Shown here piece after piece: positions 3,326 through 62,558 of a stretch of 64,000 nt of DNA. The notes beneath the pieces were generated by a model. The model made no database searches. It saw only the letters and a list, made by a program, of their open reading frames with translations, and was not told the DNA's origin. The number at the start of each line of letters is the position of its first letter. The first letter of the stretch is position 1. Position numbers and translations under genes: made by a program. The stretch covers positions 1 to 64,000 of the forward strand of contig CANPZC010000002.1 in assembly GCA_947589355.1 (NCBI GenBank). Direction: 5' to 3'. Source of the stretch: an uncultured Clostridia bacterium. GTDB lineage: Bacteria > Bacillota > Clostridia > Oscillospirales > Ruminococcaceae.

Positions 3326-4348
3326 ATGCAGCGGTATGAAACTAAAATGCTCTCTGACAGTGATGAAGATATAGCATTAGCGGCGCAGCTTTTGAAAAGC
3401 GGCGAAGTCGTCGGCATACCTACAGAAACGGTCTACGGGCTTGCTGCCGATGCCGAGAACGAAAGCGCGGTAAAGAAAATATTCGAGGCAAAGGGCAGAC
3501 CGTCTGACAATCCGCTGATAGTGCATATTTCTGATATATCTATGCTTGAAAGGCTGGTAAGCGAGGTTTCGCCTGTGGCACTTAAATGCGCGGAGCGTTT
3601 CTGGCCCGGGCCGCTGACTATCGTTATGCCCAAAAGCGATAATATTCCGTATGTTACAAGCGGCGGACTTGATACGGTGGGCGTGCGTTTTCCGTCGCAC
3701 AAAACGGCGCAGAAGATAATTTCTGCCTGCGGAAAGGCTTTGGCAGCGCCGTCTGCAAATCTTTCGGGAAGCCCAAGCCCTACGCTTGCAAAACACGTTC
3801 TGGACGATATGAACGGACGTATACCTGCGATAGTTGACGGCGGCAGCTGCACGGTCGGCGTTGAATCAACGGTAATAAGTATTGAAAATGATGTTTTACG
3901 CGTTCTTCGCCCCGGAATGGTGTCTGTAGAGATGCTGAAAGAGGTCTGCGAGAATGTTATAGTTGACAAAGGCGTTTCAGAGCAGCTGGATATTTCGGCA
4001 AAGGTGCGCTCACCGGGTATGAAATACAAGCATTATTCGCCCAAAGCGCAGGTATATATTATTAAGGGCGGTACGCGAGAGGTAGTTAAATATCTTGAAG
4101 AGCATATTCATACACAGAAAGATATCGCGGTAGATTTCTGCGGCGAACTGGCAGGAGACCATGTCAGGGTGCTGCCTTACGGTGCTGCGGCAAAAGAGCA
4201 GGCGCAGAATCTGTTTGCGGTGCTGAGAAAGTGCGACGACATTGGCGCTGAAAGGGTGTTTGTGCGCTGCCCCGATACAAGCGGCGAGGGTCTGGCGGTG
4301 TATAACAGGCTGCTTCGCGCGGCGGCTTTCAGGATCATCGAGGTATAA
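3326..4348 (+). CDS. L-threonylcarbamoyladenylate synthase (Sua5/YwlC/YrdC)
   Basis: GEVVGIPTETVYGLAADA, KGRPSDNPLIVHI, RFPSH, LAAPSANLSGSPSPT, C-terminal Sua5 domain; ATG at 3326. Confidence 0.93.
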   Translation: MQRYETKMLSDSDEDIALAAQLLKSGEVVGIPTETVYGLAADAENESAVKKIFEAKGRPSDNPLIVHISDISMLERLVSEVSPVALKCAERFWPGPLTIVMPKSDNIPYVTSGGLDTVGVRFPSHKTAQKIISACGKALAAPSANLSGSPSPTLAKHVLDDMNGRIPAIVDGGSCTVGVESTVISIENDVLRVLRPGMVSVEMLKEVCENVIVDKGVSEQLDISAKVRSPGMKYKHYSPKAQVYIIKGGTREVVKYLEEHIHTQKDIAVDFCGELAGDHVRVLPYGAAAKEQAQNLFAVLRKCDDIGAERVFVRCPDTSGEGLAVYNRLLRAAAFRIIEV

Positions 4349-4369
4349 ATATAGAACGGCGGTCATTTT

Positions 4370-5005
4370 ATGGATAACAAAACGTATGTTATAGGTCTTA
4401 CGGGGCAGAGCGGCTCGGGTAAAACGCTGGTGAGCGATCACCTGAAAAAATGCGGATACAGCGTTATAAATGCAGACTTAGTTGCGCGTCAGGTGACAGA
4501 AACAGGCAGTGATTGCAACAAGAGCTTAGCGAAAATTTTTCCCGAATGTTTTGATGAAAAGCTTTGTCTTGACAGGCGAAAGCTTGGAGATATAGTTTTC
4601 AGCAACGGGCAGAAGCTTAAAATGCTGAATGATACCATATTTCCGTATATAAACAAGCTTATTAAAGAGCAGATAAGCACCCTTGCGCAAAGCGGTGTAA
4701 AGGTCGTTATTTTAGATGCGCCGACACTGTTTGAGGCAGGTGCAGACAAACTTTGCGATATTATAATAAGCGTTGTGGCAGATGATGAAGTGCGGCTTGA
4801 GCGCATACGCGGCAGGGATAAGATCAGCGACGAAAGCATTAAAGCGCGGTTTTCATCGCAAAAGAGCAAGGAATTTTATCTTGCGCACAGCGATATAATT
4901 CTTGAAAACAACGATAAGGCTGAAAAGTTTTTACAGCACGCTGACAGGATATTCGGCGATATAAAAGCGCTGGCAGAGGGGCAGGCAAATGGCGAAAAAA
5001 GCTAA
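4370..5005 (+). CDS. coaE: Dephospho-CoA kinase
   Basis: IGLTGQSGSGKTLVSDHLKKCGYSVINADLVAR and DAPTLFEAG motifs. Confidence 0.92.
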   Translation: MDNKTYVIGLTGQSGSGKTLVSDHLKKCGYSVINADLVARQVTETGSDCNKSLAKIFPECFDEKLCLDRRKLGDIVFSNGQKLKMLNDTIFPYINKLIKEQISTLAQSGVKVVILDAPTLFEAGADKLCDIIISVVADDEVRLERIRGRDKISDESIKARFSSQKSKEFYLAHSDIILENNDKAEKFLQHADRIFGDIKALAEGQANGEKS

Positions 5006-5555
5006 GAAGAAACGCACAAAAGCTATAATCATAGTGCCGATCATTTTTCTGCTGGCAGCTTTTGCCGCGCCGTGGCTGTGCAGGCTGTTTGTGTATCCGA
5101 AGGCATATGAAGAATACGTTGAAAAATACAGCGGCGACTTTGGTGTTGACGAAAACTTTATATACGCTGTGATAAACACCGAGAGCGGCTTTGATGAGAA
5201 TGCTAAGTCTAATGTAGGCGCTGTGGGGCTTATGCAGATAATGGAGGACGCATTCAAATGGACAAAGCGATCACTCGATGCGCAGCACACCGATATTGAG
5301 TATGGCGATATGCTTACGCCCGAGTATAACATTGAATATGGCTGCTGTATGTTGGGATACTATTATAAAAAATACGGCTCGTATGAACTGTCGGCGGCGG
5401 CTTACCATGCAGGCACGAATCAAGTAGACATATGGCTTGAAGACGGCACTATAGATGCAAATAATGTTGACATTGATGATATACCGTCAGATGCTACTGC
5501 GCATTATGTAAGAAAAGTTATGAGGGCTTATGAGGCTTACAAGGCTCTCTATTAA
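4989..5555 (+). CDS. Lytic transglycosylase (SLT domain), membrane anchored
   Basis: N-terminal TM; YAVINTESGFDENAKSNVGAVGLMQIMEDA and AAAYHAGTNQVDIWLEDG. Confidence 0.9.
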   Translation: MAKKAKKKRTKAIIIVPIIFLLAAFAAPWLCRLFVYPKAYEEYVEKYSGDFGVDENFIYAVINTESGFDENAKSNVGAVGLMQIMEDAFKWTKRSLDAQHTDIEYGDMLTPEYNIEYGCCMLGYYYKKYGSYELSAAAYHAGTNQVDIWLEDGTIDANNVDIDDIPSDATAHYVRKVMRAYEAYKALY

Positions 5556-5576
5556 ATATTCAAGGGGGATAATATC

Positions 5577-6986
5577 ATGGACAACAAAGAAAGATCACAG
5601 TCGGAGATGCTGAAAGAAAAGCTGTTTTCGCAGAAAAAGAACGCTTACTTCGTTATGGAGGACAGCGAGATAAATTCGGCTTTTGAGGTTTGCGAAGAGT
5701 ACAAAGCTTTTATGAACAAGGCTAAGATCGAGCGCGAATTTGTAAATGAAAGCGTTAAGGCTGCAAAGGCGGCAGGCTTTACAGAGTATGAGGCAGGCAA
5801 AAAGTATTCGGTAGGGGACAAGATCTATGTTGTAAACAGGGGCAAGGCTATGCTGCTTGCTGTAATAGGTACGCGCCCATTGACCGACGGAATAAGGCTT
5901 GCGGCTGCGCATATAGATTCACCGCGGCTTGACCTGAAGCAGCATCCTTTGTATGAAGACAAAGAGATAGCTCTTTTGAAAACGCATTACTACGGCGGAA
6001 TAAAGAAATATCAGTGGTCTACCGTTCCTATGGCGCTGCACGGCACTATTGTAAAGGCTGACGGCAGCAGCGTTGATGTAAATATCGGCGAGGACGAGGG
6101 CGACCCGCAGTTTTGCGTTACAGATCTGCTCATACACCTTGCAGACGAGCAGATGAAACGCCCTGCCGCAAAGGTGGTAAAAGGCGAGGAACTTAATATT
6201 CTTGTAGGTTCCAGACCTTTTAAAGATGACAAGGGTTCGCAGCTTGTAAAGCTTTATACTTTACAGCTTTTGAACGAGAAATATGGCATCACAGAAGATG
6301 ATCTTATTTCCGCAGAGCTTGAAGCCGTTCCTGCCTGCAAAGCTGTTGATATAGGCTTTGACAGAAGCATGATAGGCGCTTACGGTCAAGATGACAAGGT
6401 TTGTGCCTTTACAGAGCTTAAAGCTATACTTGATACAAAAGACCCCTCGTATACCTGCGTTGCGGTGCTTACCGATAAGGAAGAAATAGGCAGCATGGGC
6501 AATACGGGCCTTGAAAGCGAATATCTGCGGTACTTTATTCTCAGGCTGGCAAAAAGTTTCGGTGTTGACGGCACTGCTGTAATATCTGCCACACAAGCGC
6601 TTTCTGCCGATGTTAACGCCGCGTTCGATCCGACTTTCCCCGAGCCTACAGATATAAATAACGGCTGCCGTCTTAATTACGGTGTGGCTGTTACGAAATA
6701 CACAGGCGCAAGGGGCAAATCGGGCAGCTCCGATGCCTCTGCCGAATTTGTGGGCAAGGTGCGCAGGCTGTTTGATGCAAACGGTGTTGAATGGCAGACG
6801 GGCGAGCTTGGCAAGGTAGATGCAGGCGGCGGCGGAACGGTTGCGCAATATCTTGCAAACCTTGATATGGACGTTATCGACGTTGGCGTGCCTGTGCTTT
6901 CTATGCACTCGCCGTTTGAAGTTACTTCAAAAATAGACACATATATGGCGTATAAGGCGTTCAAGGTGTTCTTTGCAGAAAAATAA
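5577..6986 (+). CDS. M18 family aminopeptidase
   Basis: LAAAHIDSPRLDLKQHPLYE, TDKEEIGSMGNTGLES, metal-binding HIDS/DKEE pattern. Confidence 0.9.
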   Translation: MDNKERSQSEMLKEKLFSQKKNAYFVMEDSEINSAFEVCEEYKAFMNKAKIEREFVNESVKAAKAAGFTEYEAGKKYSVGDKIYVVNRGKAMLLAVIGTRPLTDGIRLAAAHIDSPRLDLKQHPLYEDKEIALLKTHYYGGIKKYQWSTVPMALHGTIVKADGSSVDVNIGEDEGDPQFCVTDLLIHLADEQMKRPAAKVVKGEELNILVGSRPFKDDKGSQLVKLYTLQLLNEKYGITEDDLISAELEAVPACKAVDIGFDRSMIGAYGQDDKVCAFTELKAILDTKDPSYTCVAVLTDKEEIGSMGNTGLESEYLRYFILRLAKSFGVDGTAVISATQALSADVNAAFDPTFPEPTDINNGCRLNYGVAVTKYTGARGKSGSSDASAEFVGKVRRLFDANGVEWQTGELGKVDAGGGGTVAQYLANLDMDVIDVGVPVLSMHSPFEVTSKIDTYMAYKAFKVFFAEK

Positions 6987-35077: not shown

Positions 35078-35107
35078 AAATACCGTCATAAGTTTTTATA
35101 TTCTAAA

Positions 35108-35347
35108 GGCTGCGACGGGAAGAAGTAGCGTTACTGACGGGCAAAGAGAGCTGTCGGCTGGTGTAAGGCAGCGCCGTTCATTTCGTGAAATACATCTCTG
35201 AGCCAAAGCGCTGAAACAAAAGTAGGCGTTTTCGTGTGCGCACGTTACAGCGCGTTTGAAAGGTTGCGGCGTTAAATAAGCTGCAATAAAACTGAGGTGG
35301 TACAGCGTTTCTATTCGCCCTCGGAGAGTTTCTCTTCGAGGGCTTTT
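35108..35347 (+). promoter_or_regulatory. T-box riboswitch leader, tyrosine specific (TAC specifier)
   Basis: Stem I base GGCT (35108-35111)/AGCC (35201-35204); GAAATACATCTC with TAC specifier at 35191-35193; T-box ACTGAGGTGGTACAGCG (35291-35307); terminator GCCCTCGGAGAG...CTCTTCGAGGGC-TTTT; tyrS downstream. Confidence 0.9.
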
Positions 35348-57748: not shown

Positions 57749-57760
57749 ATTCAGCATTGA

Positions 57761-57786
57761 AAGACCGCTTTGTGCGGTCTTTTTTT
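57761..57786 (+). terminator. Intrinsic terminator after pnp
   Basis: AAGACCGC-TTTGT-GCGGTCTT followed by T-run. Confidence 0.85.
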
Positions 57787-57795
57787 GTACTGTGA

Positions 57796-57824
57796 TTGAC
57801 AAAGACGGCGCGGTGTTGTATAAT
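57796..57824 (+). promoter_or_regulatory. Consensus sigma-A promoter for ilvB-like/ilvN
   Basis: TTGACA (57796-57801), 17-nt spacer, TATAAT (57819-57824); so the ORF-track start at 57796 is too early. Confidence 0.85.
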
Positions 57825-57852: not shown

Positions 57853-59385
57853 ATGAAAATGTTAGTAAGTGAAGCAATTGTAAAATGCCTTGAAGCGGAG
57901 AAAACTTCGGTAGTCTTCGGCGTGGAGGGTTATAATATTGAGCCTGTGTGCATGGCGCTGAAAAATTCTTCAATAAGATATGTTCCCATGAACAGCGAGG
58001 AAAGCGCAGGTCATGCGGCAGGCGGCTGCGCGCAGATGACGGGCAAACCGTGCGTGAGCGTGTGCGGCAGCGGTGCAAGTGCGCTTAAAATGCTTGCGGC
58101 AGTGGCGGCGGCGTATACCGACTGTGTGCCACTTATTGCGATAACAGGTCAGGTGTCGTCAGATGTTCTGGGCAGAGATGTTTCGGACGAAGCAGACATT
58201 ATAGGTTCGGTAGAGCCGTTTGTAAAGCACAGCTATCTTGTAAGAAACGCGCAGGACATACCGCGCATAATAAAAGAGGCGTTTTATATAGCTTCTTCGG
58301 GCAGACACGGCCCCGTGCTTATTGATATACCTGTTGATATCCAGCGGCAGGAAATTGACCCCGTTTTCCCTGAAAGCGTTCTGATACGAGGCTACAACCC
58401 TATACAAAAAGGTAATACATCTCAGGTAAAGCGGTTTGCGCAGGCTCTGCAAAAGGCAGAAAGACCGCTGATGATAGTAGGCGGCGGAGTGTTTTCTTCA
58501 AATGCCTGCGATGAGGCGCGTGCGCTTTCAAAAAAGCTGGATATGCCTACCGTTTCTACCGCTGGGGGATTCTCGGTATTTCCGTATGACGATAAACGCT
58601 TTTTCGGCTGCTGTGAACCGTCTTCAACGCTTACAGATATGGCAATTGCAAACTGCGATGTACTTTTGATAGTTGGTGCGCGGCTGTGGTCGCTGCCGGT
58701 TGGTATTGAAAACAAGACTATACTTCACATTGATATTGACCCTGCCGAGATAGGCAAGAATATTTCCGCCGACCTGCCGCTTGTGGGTGACTGCAAGTAT
58801 GTTCTGGGACAGCTTAGCGATGCGGTAAAACAGTGCAAGCACGGCAGTTGGAGAAAGTATCTTGACAGCCACCGCACGCAGCCAAGCGTTGGTGAAAAGC
58901 TGACCGAGGAGTATATCTTCTCGCTGCTGTCGGACGTTATATCGGAAAACGCCGCGATAGTATGCGAAAGCGCAGGCATAAAGTCTCACGCGGTGAAATC
59001 ATTGAAAATAAAGCAGGGCAGGTTTATATCGCGCATAGGAATGAACGGTTCGGGCTTTGCGCTGCCAACGGCTATCGGCGTTAAGGCATCATGCAGTGAA
59101 AGCGAGGACAGGGAAGTTATCTGCATTTGCAGCCTTAGGTCTCTTTGCTGTTCGTTTTCAGATATGACAATACTTGCTTCAGAAAACATACCCGTAAAAC
59201 TGCTTATACTGAAATATGGCGAGGCTGCATCGGTTGATATAAAAAAGCTTTCGCAGGCTTGCGGTATTGAATACTTAAAGATCTCTAAAATAGAGCAAGC
59301 GCAGGAAGCTTTGACTAAATTTGCCCAAAGCGGCGGCAGCGTATTGCTTGAAGTTGATATTAAAAAGCAGGGAGGTAAGGAGTAA
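57853..59385 (+). CDS. Acetolactate synthase large subunit-like ThDP-family protein with degenerate cofactor motif
   Basis: N-terminal Glu region NSEESAGHAAGGCAQMTGKPCV and PLIAITGQV conserved; the GDG...N segment reads ICICSLRSLCC...LLILKYGEA. Four-base-type overlap (TAATG) with ilvN. Confidence 0.8.
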   Translation: MKMLVSEAIVKCLEAEKTSVVFGVEGYNIEPVCMALKNSSIRYVPMNSEESAGHAAGGCAQMTGKPCVSVCGSGASALKMLAAVAAAYTDCVPLIAITGQVSSDVLGRDVSDEADIIGSVEPFVKHSYLVRNAQDIPRIIKEAFYIASSGRHGPVLIDIPVDIQRQEIDPVFPESVLIRGYNPIQKGNTSQVKRFAQALQKAERPLMIVGGGVFSSNACDEARALSKKLDMPTVSTAGGFSVFPYDDKRFFGCCEPSSTLTDMAIANCDVLLIVGARLWSLPVGIENKTILHIDIDPAEIGKNISADLPLVGDCKYVLGQLSDAVKQCKHGSWRKYLDSHRTQPSVGEKLTEEYIFSLLSDVISENAAIVCESAGIKSHAVKSLKIKQGRFISRIGMNGSGFALPTAIGVKASCSESEDREVICICSLRSLCCSFSDMTILASENIPVKLLILKYGEAASVDIKKLSQACGIEYLKISKIEQAQEALTKFAQSGGSVLLEVDIKKQGGKE

Positions 59386-59888
59386 TGAAACACACGATCT
59401 CAGTGCTTGTTGAGAACCACGCAGGCGTGCTTTCAAGAATTTCGGGGCTATTTACACGCCGCGGATTTAACATAGACAGCCTTGCGGTGGGCGTTACCGA
59501 CGACCCCGACATATCGCGCATTACTATAATAGTTACCTGCGACGAGCACATGACCGAGCAGGTAGAAAAGCAGCTCAACAAACTTATAGAAGTGCTTAAA
59601 GTAAAAACGATACCCGACGAGGAGCTTATTGCAAGGGAGCTTATGATAGTGAAGCTTTCTGCCGATGCAGCCGCGCGCCGCGACATACTTACGGTGGCAG
59701 AGGTAATGGAGGCGAAAATACTTGACATTACGCCTACCACGCTTACCTTGCAGCTTGCAGATGTGCCGCAGCAGTTGGAGCGCTTTGTTCAGCTTGTAGA
59801 GCCTTACGGAATACTTGAAATTGCGCGCACGGGAACTATAGCTTTGCAAAAGGGAAGTGATACGCTTTCTTTCAGAGGTAAAGTGTAG
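59385..59888 (+). CDS. ilvN: Acetolactate synthase small (regulatory) subunit
   Basis: KHTISVLVENHAGVLSRISGLFTRRGFNIDSLAVGVTDDPDISRITI ACT domain; C-terminal ARTGTIALQKGSD. Confidence 0.94.
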   Translation: MKHTISVLVENHAGVLSRISGLFTRRGFNIDSLAVGVTDDPDISRITIIVTCDEHMTEQVEKQLNKLIEVLKVKTIPDEELIARELMIVKLSADAAARRDILTVAEVMEAKILDITPTTLTLQLADVPQQLERFVQLVEPYGILEIARTGTIALQKGSDTLSFRGKV

Positions 59889-60059: not shown

Positions 60060-62558
60060 ATGTTCAAAATGGTATTCAAAAATCTCACGGGGCAATTTAA
60101 AAAGCAGCGAATGTTGTCGGCTCTTTTGGTGCTGAATATAATAGTTTCCTGCCTTGTAATATGCTTTTCATACGGCCTTTACCAAAATTATAATGTTGTT
60201 ATCAAAGAGGGAGAGAGCGAGGAGCTGAAAGAGCTTTATGTTTATACAGACAAAGAACACAACGTTCCTCCAAGCGATAAGACCGATGTAAGAAGCGCTG
60301 CGGACATATCTCCCTCTATGTTCATGGATATGATGAAAAGCTGGTCTGACGATACAAAAAGCAATATTGAAGATGTAACAGTTGAATTTATTGTTGAGAC
60401 ACCTATGTCTGTAAATTATGACAATAACGCCGCAGACGAATGGTATTCTGATGACAAAGAGCCATATTACATGACCGTTGGATACCATATAGGCATTGAC
60501 GGAGACAAGTTTATTGATACTTCCCGCGCAGGTCAATATTTTACCGAGGAGCAGTATAACAGCGGTGAAAAGATGATAGTGCTTGACGAGAGTATGTTTT
60601 CTGAATCAAATATTTCTGTCTACAGCGAAAGTGTTTATATAGACGATGAGGTCAAAGAACTTAACTGGGCATACAGACATATCCCCTCTGATGCCGATCA
60701 TGTTATAATAGGGGGAGAAAGTTATAGAATAATCGGTAATATGCCGACCGGCACCCTGCCGAAATATGTTGCGGCGATCCCTCTGCCTGCGCTTAGTGAT
60801 AAAGCAAAGGTTGAGCTTGGTTCTGCTCATGACAATACAGATAAAATGTACAGATCCAGATGCTGCATAATATCATTCAACGAACCTGTAACGCGTGAAC
60901 AGTATGCAGATATTAAAGACTCACTCTCTTATCTGGGCAGCGATGTTTATCTGCAAGATATACAGATCACCGAAGCAAAAGAAATATATTACTACAAAAC
61001 TATCATGCTCATTTCGGTAGTTATTGCCGTGCTTGCAGCGATAAACATGGCAATACTGTATCGCTATATACTTGAAAAACGCTCGTCGCATCTTGCTATT
61101 TTCAGAATATGCGGCTGCTCAAAGGGCGGGGCTGTAGCTTCGTATCTTTTAGAGTGCCTTTTAATAAATATACCGCTGTTCATACTTACACAGCTTGTTT
61201 ATCATAAGCTTATCATGCCGCGGCTTACTTCTCTCTTCCCGAATATGGCAGGCGCTTACAGCTTTAAACTTTACGCCGCAATATTCGATATATACATAAC
61301 CGCTTCAACGCTTGTAATGCTCGTGATGATAATACACACCGTTCGCTCTCACAGCCTTGTTGCGCTTAAAAGCGCAGGCAAGTCAACAGGAAAAGCAGGC
61401 GGTATTATGAAAGTATTTGAAGTTATACAGCTGGCGGCGGTGCTTTCAATGATGGTGCTTATCGTTTCTGCGATAATTTCAAGATATGCGCTTTACACGC
61501 CGTTTGAAAAGTATTTTGACCGCAAGGGCTATCTGGTGGAAGCGACAGACCCCACAGTTTATGATAAAGACTTTGAAGATGCGGCAGGCACTTCGGATAT
61601 TACTATGTCGCAGATGATGTCACGAGTGATAGGCGATGTTAATTTTGGCGGTATTGCATATGATGATGAATTTATAGAAAGCTATGCTCCGCCCCTTGAA
61701 GACGGTGTGTGGCTTTCGGATACCGATATCACATACGAAAAGGACGGATACATACCTGCCGTTATTACCTACTGCGGCGGACGATATAAGGTGGGCGACG
61801 AGCTTACGCAGGAATTTCAGTTATCCGACAATGACGGCAATTTGCAGACAATTACAGAAAAAGTCAAAATCATAGGTATTTTAAAAGATAAGGCAAGTAT
61901 TGCTTCGTATGTTTTAGATAAGCCGCTTGCACATGAGGATCACAGAGACATTTATAATGTGTTCAGTGACGGCTTTGAAGAAAATGACTGGCTTCTTACA
62001 AGGCTGTCAGATGAATATGCCTGCTTTAAGGGCAGCGGCGTGGTGTGGGGAACACAGTTTGTGTTCTATGACGGCTTGAGCGATGAAGAATTTGCAAGGC
62101 ACGGCGATGACCTGAACCGTCAATTCACGGCAACAAAACTCTCCGTGATACGCAAAAACAGCATGAAATACATATATGCACAAATGTATACCCTTTTCCC
62201 GATTGCTGTTTGTATCTTCATACTTACGATAATTTCTACCGTATCAATAAGCGCGATATACACAAAACGGCAGCTTAGGAACTATGCTATTTTCTACATC
62301 TGCGGTGCAAGGTGGCGCACCTGCGCATTGCGAAGCCTTAAAAACAGCGCAATTACCTGTGGTATAGCAAGCATTTTGGCGGCTGCAGTGCTGATTGTAG
62401 GCAAACTGACATTCTTTAAAGAAACAGTCATTTCGTTCGGTTGGTGGCACTTCGGGGTATGTGCAGGAGTTATAGCGCTCTACCTCGCACTGTCAATGAT
62501 AATGCCGCTGATGATAATAGGTTCTAACCAGCCGAAAGAAGTGCTCAAAGAAGATTAA
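60060..62558 (+). CDS. FtsX-like ABC transporter permease
   Basis: 832 aa; N-terminal TM, large extracytoplasmic domain, FtsX-type TM blocks (AINMAILYRYILEKRSSHLAIFRICGCSKGGAV). Confidence 0.85.
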   Translation: MFKMVFKNLTGQFKKQRMLSALLVLNIIVSCLVICFSYGLYQNYNVVIKEGESEELKELYVYTDKEHNVPPSDKTDVRSAADISPSMFMDMMKSWSDDTKSNIEDVTVEFIVETPMSVNYDNNAADEWYSDDKEPYYMTVGYHIGIDGDKFIDTSRAGQYFTEEQYNSGEKMIVLDESMFSESNISVYSESVYIDDEVKELNWAYRHIPSDADHVIIGGESYRIIGNMPTGTLPKYVAAIPLPALSDKAKVELGSAHDNTDKMYRSRCCIISFNEPVTREQYADIKDSLSYLGSDVYLQDIQITEAKEIYYYKTIMLISVVIAVLAAINMAILYRYILEKRSSHLAIFRICGCSKGGAVASYLLECLLINIPLFILTQLVYHKLIMPRLTSLFPNMAGAYSFKLYAAIFDIYITASTLVMLVMIIHTVRSHSLVALKSAGKSTGKAGGIMKVFEVIQLAAVLSMMVLIVSAIISRYALYTPFEKYFDRKGYLVEATDPTVYDKDFEDAAGTSDITMSQMMSRVIGDVNFGGIAYDDEFIESYAPPLEDGVWLSDTDITYEKDGYIPAVITYCGGRYKVGDELTQEFQLSDNDGNLQTITEKVKIIGILKDKASIASYVLDKPLAHEDHRDIYNVFSDGFEENDWLLTRLSDEYACFKGSGVVWGTQFVFYDGLSDEEFARHGDDLNRQFTATKLSVIRKNSMKYIYAQMYTLFPIAVCIFILTIISTVSISAIYTKRQLRNYAIFYICGARWRTCALRSLKNSAITCGIASILAAAVLIVGKLTFFKETVISFGWWHFGVCAGVIALYLALSMIMPLMIIGSNQPKEVLKED

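Follow-up and report, generated by a model that had tools for sequence, protein, structure and literature searches.

What becomes of an AHAS large subunit that has lost its cofactor motif and is still encoded beside an intact regulatory subunit, IlvN? The question is raised by a two-gene operon of an uncultured Clostridia bacterium (Ruminococcaceae), located in a stretch of 64,000 nucleotides (the window; contig CANPZC010000002.1, assembly GCA_947589355.1, positions 1 to 64,000). A sequence-only reading of this DNA had taken the large subunit, here termed IlvB*, for a non-catalytic or repurposed ThDP-fold protein, for instance a regulatory partner for another AHAS.

The operon and the cofactor site of its large subunit

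The genes are arranged in the order pnp, terminator, a perfect promoter, ilvB*, and ilvN (Table 1), with the ilvB* stop and the ilvN start overlapping in the sequence TAATG (59383-59387). The intact frame, consensus promoter, and preserved overlap described in the sequence-only reading all hold up. The mechanically called ORF for ilvB* spans 529 aa and begins at a TTG within the promoter. Candidate ATGs occur at 57853 and 57859, and the protein is probably 508 aa long because only the latter is conserved in all four species that carry the pair; IlvB* residue numbers are nevertheless counted from the ATG at 57853.

Table 1. Features of the ilvB*-ilvN locus, in window coordinates
Feature	Position	Strand	Remarks
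Rho-independent terminator of the upstream pnp gene	57759..57783	+	Common to 4 species
Sigma-70-type promoter of the two-gene operon, TTGACA-17-TATAAT	57796..57824	+	12/12 matches; hexamers identical in 4 species
ilvB*, AHAS large-subunit pseudoenzyme (predicted), 508 aa	57859..59385	+	
Codon of the kept catalytic Glu (E49)	57997..57999	+	
Degenerate ThDP/Mg motif, deletion immediately after	59122..59220	+	
ilvN, intact AHAS small (regulatory) subunit, 167 aa	59385..59888	+	Start overlaps ilvB* stop
ACT (valine-binding) domain of IlvN	59397..59600	+	N11, G14, L16, N29, V35 present

The stretch at 59115-59225 encodes ...EVICICSLRSLCCSFSDMTILASENIPVKLLILKYGEA, and its product aligns column for column (HMMER) with the DIDGDGSFIMNVQEL...VKVLLLN segment of Arabidopsis AHAS. 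Where relatives have xxCGDGSFQMQMMEL...IIMxNN, IlvB* reads CICSLRSLCCSFSDM...LILKYG, with the GDG replaced by SLR (residues 427-429), the GDGSF by SLRSL (CSLRSL), and the Mg-ligand Asn by Y455. The alignment to the IlvB family thus finds the ThDP/Mg motif absent from its site, as had been claimed; the loss is, however, not restricted to the GDG...N motif and reaches well beyond it. Compared with Arabidopsis AHAS and with relatives in its own bacterial family that share 40-47% identity in the aligned part, SGPGATN is changed to SGASALK, YPGAA to VEGYN, FQE to SDE, and GGMGTMG to IGMNGSG. The alignment row L015, taken from the wrong strand, is excluded from this comparison. The DVGQNQMW segment is unrecognizable, and the NN...LGMVxxxQ loop of the relatives is reduced to a short stretch, about 23 residues after the NN being deleted. 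The catalytic Glu49 of the PYR domain is kept, in agreement with the sequence-only reading, as are Gln100 and Lys125.

In total, IlvB* has lost 70 of the 168 positions that are invariant in its 30 nearest active relatives. Segments assigned to ThDP or FAD hold 53 of these 70 lost residues versus 17 of the 98 retained ones (Fisher P = 2e-14, a descriptive value, as the segments were hand-picked with knowledge of the motifs). With numbering transferred by hand, two of the five FAD-contact positions named in PMC5727371 are kept, viz., R151 and R277, whose contact roles are taken from that paper; the L of TLMG, the H of GMHG, and the R of DDR are lost. We also considered a displacement of the cofactor motif to another part of the protein, and rejected it: the Pfam TPP_enzyme_C model matches only residues 387-453, and the remaining C-terminus aligns normally. 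Milder departures from the ThDP motif occur in two other IlvB homologs (L108, 6480-8135, from Oribacterium, and L166, 10001-11749), which carry SEG or GEG at the GDG position and retain the N...GMV segment.

The N, M, and C ThDP-enzyme domains of Pfam are all matched by IlvB*, and its score against TIGR00118 (349.5 bits) lies below the equivalog cut-off of 538.35. Its AlphaFold model is ordered (mean pLDDT 89, pTM 0.90), with the degenerate stretch forming a strand (422-427) and a helix (428-443). The best PDB matches of the model are AHAS structures (TM 0.92-0.93; 1ybh, TM 0.93), a similarity that the active AHAS sequences in the underlying alignment may favor. Pseudoenzymes are a well-known class, and IlvB*, as judged from its sequence, combines an enzyme fold and a missing catalytic motif with conservation of the protein. 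The non-catalytic part of the sequence-only reading is hence well supported, with IlvB* best regarded as a conserved non-catalytic ThDP-fold protein.

Selection and unequal evolution of the two subunits

That the partner is an intact IlvN is borne out by its score against TIGR00119 (194 bits, cut-off 56.9), by the presence of both the ACT and ALS_ss_C domains, and by retention of 46 of 48 clade-invariant residues. Alignment to 2f1f and 2pc6 shows that N11, G14, L16, N29, and V35 of the valine pocket are all present; in E. coli IlvH, N11, N29, L16, and V35 (PMC11893703) and G14 (PMC13158618) are tied to valine binding or inhibition. The two subunits have diverged very unequally. In the nearest active clade, the mean pairwise identity is 61.6% for IlvB and 64.2% for IlvN, and the identity to that clade is 40.4% for IlvB* versus a near-normal 60.4% for its partner. 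The corresponding maximum-likelihood stems measure 3.36 versus 0.46 changes per column, which implies a catalytic subunit that was remodeled and has since been kept under constraint, beside a regulatory subunit that hardly changed; part of the long IlvB* stem could reflect a phase of relaxed constraint.

The same pair occurs at the same site, behind the same promoter, in three congeners (G001, G002, and G005), with identities of 96-97% for IlvB* and 99-100% for IlvN, the latter being identical in three of the four species. Across these four species (dS ~0.2-0.37), we found no stop codons or indels inside the coding region, and dN/dS is 0.05-0.10 for ilvB* and 0-0.016 for ilvN, as against 0.005-0.016 for the highly constrained pnp. 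Within ilvB*, the ratio does not exceed 0.16 for any domain, and is 0.10-0.21 in the degenerate motif stretch and 0.04-0.10 in the C segment. The pair is therefore under purifying selection: frames and promoter are intact and dN/dS is low in all four species, with no sign of the decay among orthologs that the sequence-only reading had named as counting against it. The promoter hexamers are identical even in G002, where an insertion of about 285 bases (L007/L189), missing from the other three species, separates the promoter from the ilvB* start. This insertion contains a promoter-like stretch of its own, TTTGTATAATGTG, and looks like a small mobile element.

The only conserved neighbor of the pair is pnp, and consequently the gene layout names no pathway. 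The permease-like gene 3' of ilvN (60060-62558) is highly divergent among close congeners (dN ~0.6 in most comparisons), unlike pnp and ilvBN, which are near-identical in them. Elsewhere in the window, a T-box leader is located at 35103-35325 (Rfam RF00230, 113 bits).

The missing pathway and the distribution of the pair

A search of the organism's own genome (G000, 99.7% complete) for a second, complete ilvB recovered no other AHAS large subunit, and its single IlvN has no duplicate; a second AHAS or a duplicate IlvN in this genome is thereby ruled out. Neither ilvC nor ilvD was found in this genome, and both are likewise absent from the three congeners carrying the pair. Given that the genome has no other AHAS, the suggestion that IlvB* is a regulatory partner for one fails, and with ilvC and ilvD also missing, any repurposing must serve something else. 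The remaining ThDP-type proteins of the genome are a MenD-like protein, one that, from its sequence and neighbor, looks like a phosphonopyruvate decarboxylase, and a VorB-type oxidoreductase. The last belongs to the VorB subfamily of 2-oxoacid:ferredoxin oxidoreductases, and the genome also has leuA (2-isopropylmalate synthase), cimA (citramalate synthase), leuCDB, and a branched-chain amino-acid transaminase (among L206, L174, L176, L204, and L205). Such a set could give branched-chain amino acids from branched short-chain acids via reductive carboxylation; on isobutyrate-dependent synthesis of these amino acids, the literature searched yielded no sufficiently specific account.

Among 10 genomes of a single genus, four carry the pair. 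In two congeners (G004 and G009), IlvB* is absent and an ordinary ilvBN occurs alongside ilvC and ilvD, and three (G006, G007, and G008) have neither the pair nor ordinary ilvBN; in G003, the locus may fall in a gap, since pnp is also missing from that assembly. A tblastn search of 1.5 kb behind pnp revealed no ilvBN relic in the remaining congeners. Outside the genus, a sample of about 750 genomes from the order (398 family and 394 order genomes, partly overlapping) yielded no IlvB*; it is confined to the genus among the matches listed in a scan of the contigs of GTDB species, and plasmid records yielded only matches of <60% identity. By the dS of pnp, G009 (0.53) is about as close to G000 as the other carriers of the pair are (0.47-0.55). 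The G009 split is much too recent for so long an IlvB* stem to have arisen after it, and the pair is thus probably older, and was either acquired through transfer or lost from G009. The pnp gene of G009 is itself split into two ORFs of 438 and 280 aa (L207, G009:C15, about 3941-6120), either by a frameshift or by an assembly error.

A possible sensory role and its alternatives

These observations suggest that the pair now has a new, probably regulatory, job. We propose, at about even confidence, that the pseudoenzyme-IlvN complex has been kept as a non-catalytic sensor of branched-chain amino acids after loss of the pathway. The lineage has no active AHAS, KARI, or DHAD and hence no acetolactate-based synthesis of these amino acids; in it, IlvB*, its cofactor site lost, would have given up ThDP/Mg binding with its fold kept, and IlvN has stayed almost unaltered. 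The two proteins would still bind each other, and the ACT dimer of IlvN, by its conserved pocket, may bind valine or another branched-chain amino acid. Ligand binding would then alter the shape or assembly of the complex and thereby signal branched-chain amino-acid status to a target, which might be the VorB/LeuA/CimA route, uptake, or gene expression. More tentatively, and with the odds in our view against it, the feedback circuit may have outlived both enzyme and pathway, such that the complex of dead AHAS and live IlvN now governs the VorB/LeuA/CimA route or uptake. The narrow distribution of the pair and a gene layout that points to no pathway count against the sensor reading, and IlvN could also have been retained for a role unrelated to valine.

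Several other readings of the same data have to be weighed against a sensor. The much stronger constraint on IlvN (dN/dS 0-0.016 versus 0.05-0.10 for IlvB*) and the fact that the long stem is that of IlvB* would fit a scenario in which IlvN took on an independent function and IlvB* persists solely as a scaffold that helps IlvN to fold or remain stable, with no signaling through IlvB*; however, all three IlvB* domains and even the degenerate region are strongly constrained, which is more than a pure scaffold seems to need, and we rate this as rather unlikely. A somewhat poorer prospect is that IlvB* is an enzyme with a new, ThDP-independent chemistry, or a rebuilt pocket for another ligand, regulated by IlvN: the pocket residues have been replaced rather than randomized and are now conserved among species, and Glu49, Gln100, Lys125, and the FAD contacts R151 and R277 persist, yet most ThDP and FAD contacts are gone, the loop adjacent to the active site is deleted, and the neighbors suggest no substrate.

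Much less credible is the idea that the pair is a relic in decay, left over from an AHAS operon that was lost. The disappearance of ilvC and ilvD and the destroyed motif of IlvB* are what such a relic would display, but the absence of stops and indels at dS ~0.2-0.37 in four species, dN/dS values of at most 0.10, IlvN sequences identical in three species, and intact promoter hexamers already contradict it, unless selection stopped very recently. As for an AHAS that is still active through an unusual cofactor site, the kept Glu49 and overall fold count for little beside the joint loss of the GDG, the Asn ligand, the Met of GGMGTMG, and the GMV/Q loop in a genome with no ilvC or ilvD to use acetolactate, and we give this reading hardly any weight.

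The proposed sensor can be placed among known systems by both its likenesses and its differences. With AHAS (IlvB-IlvN), it shares the fold, the domain order, the adjacent ilvN, and a regulatory subunit with ACT and ALS_ss_C domains, and its nearest relatives, found within the same bacterial family, are ilvB-ilvN(-ilvC) operons of the ordinary type (IlvB 40-47% identical). Unlike AHAS, IlvB* lacks the ThDP/Mg motif, GGMGTMG, SGPGATN, most FAD contacts, and the active-site loop, and unlike AHAS operons, it resides in a genome without ilvC and ilvD. Free-standing ACT-domain amino-acid sensors resemble IlvN in the ACT domain and its intact amino-acid-binding residues, whereas IlvN is a full two-domain protein encoded with a large partner. 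Within the ThDP-enzyme family, yeast Thi3, a relative of pyruvate decarboxylase, has been proposed to be a regulatory sensor and is described as still binding ThDP as a ligand in a pseudo active site (PMC10246790). IlvB* is comparable, by analogy only, as a ThDP-enzyme relative with a proposed regulatory role, but differs in having lost the ThDP site, with the ACT subunit as the presumed sensor. The literature searched, which comprised open-licence papers, yielded no description of an AHAS pseudoenzyme.

In this locus, a textbook allosteric enzyme has its regulatory half split from catalysis and under selection without the pathway, so that any role of IlvN beyond the regulation of AHAS becomes open to direct test. 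For annotation, IlvB* is also a trap: automatic pipelines may label it an acetolactate synthase and predict valine and isoleucine prototrophy in error.
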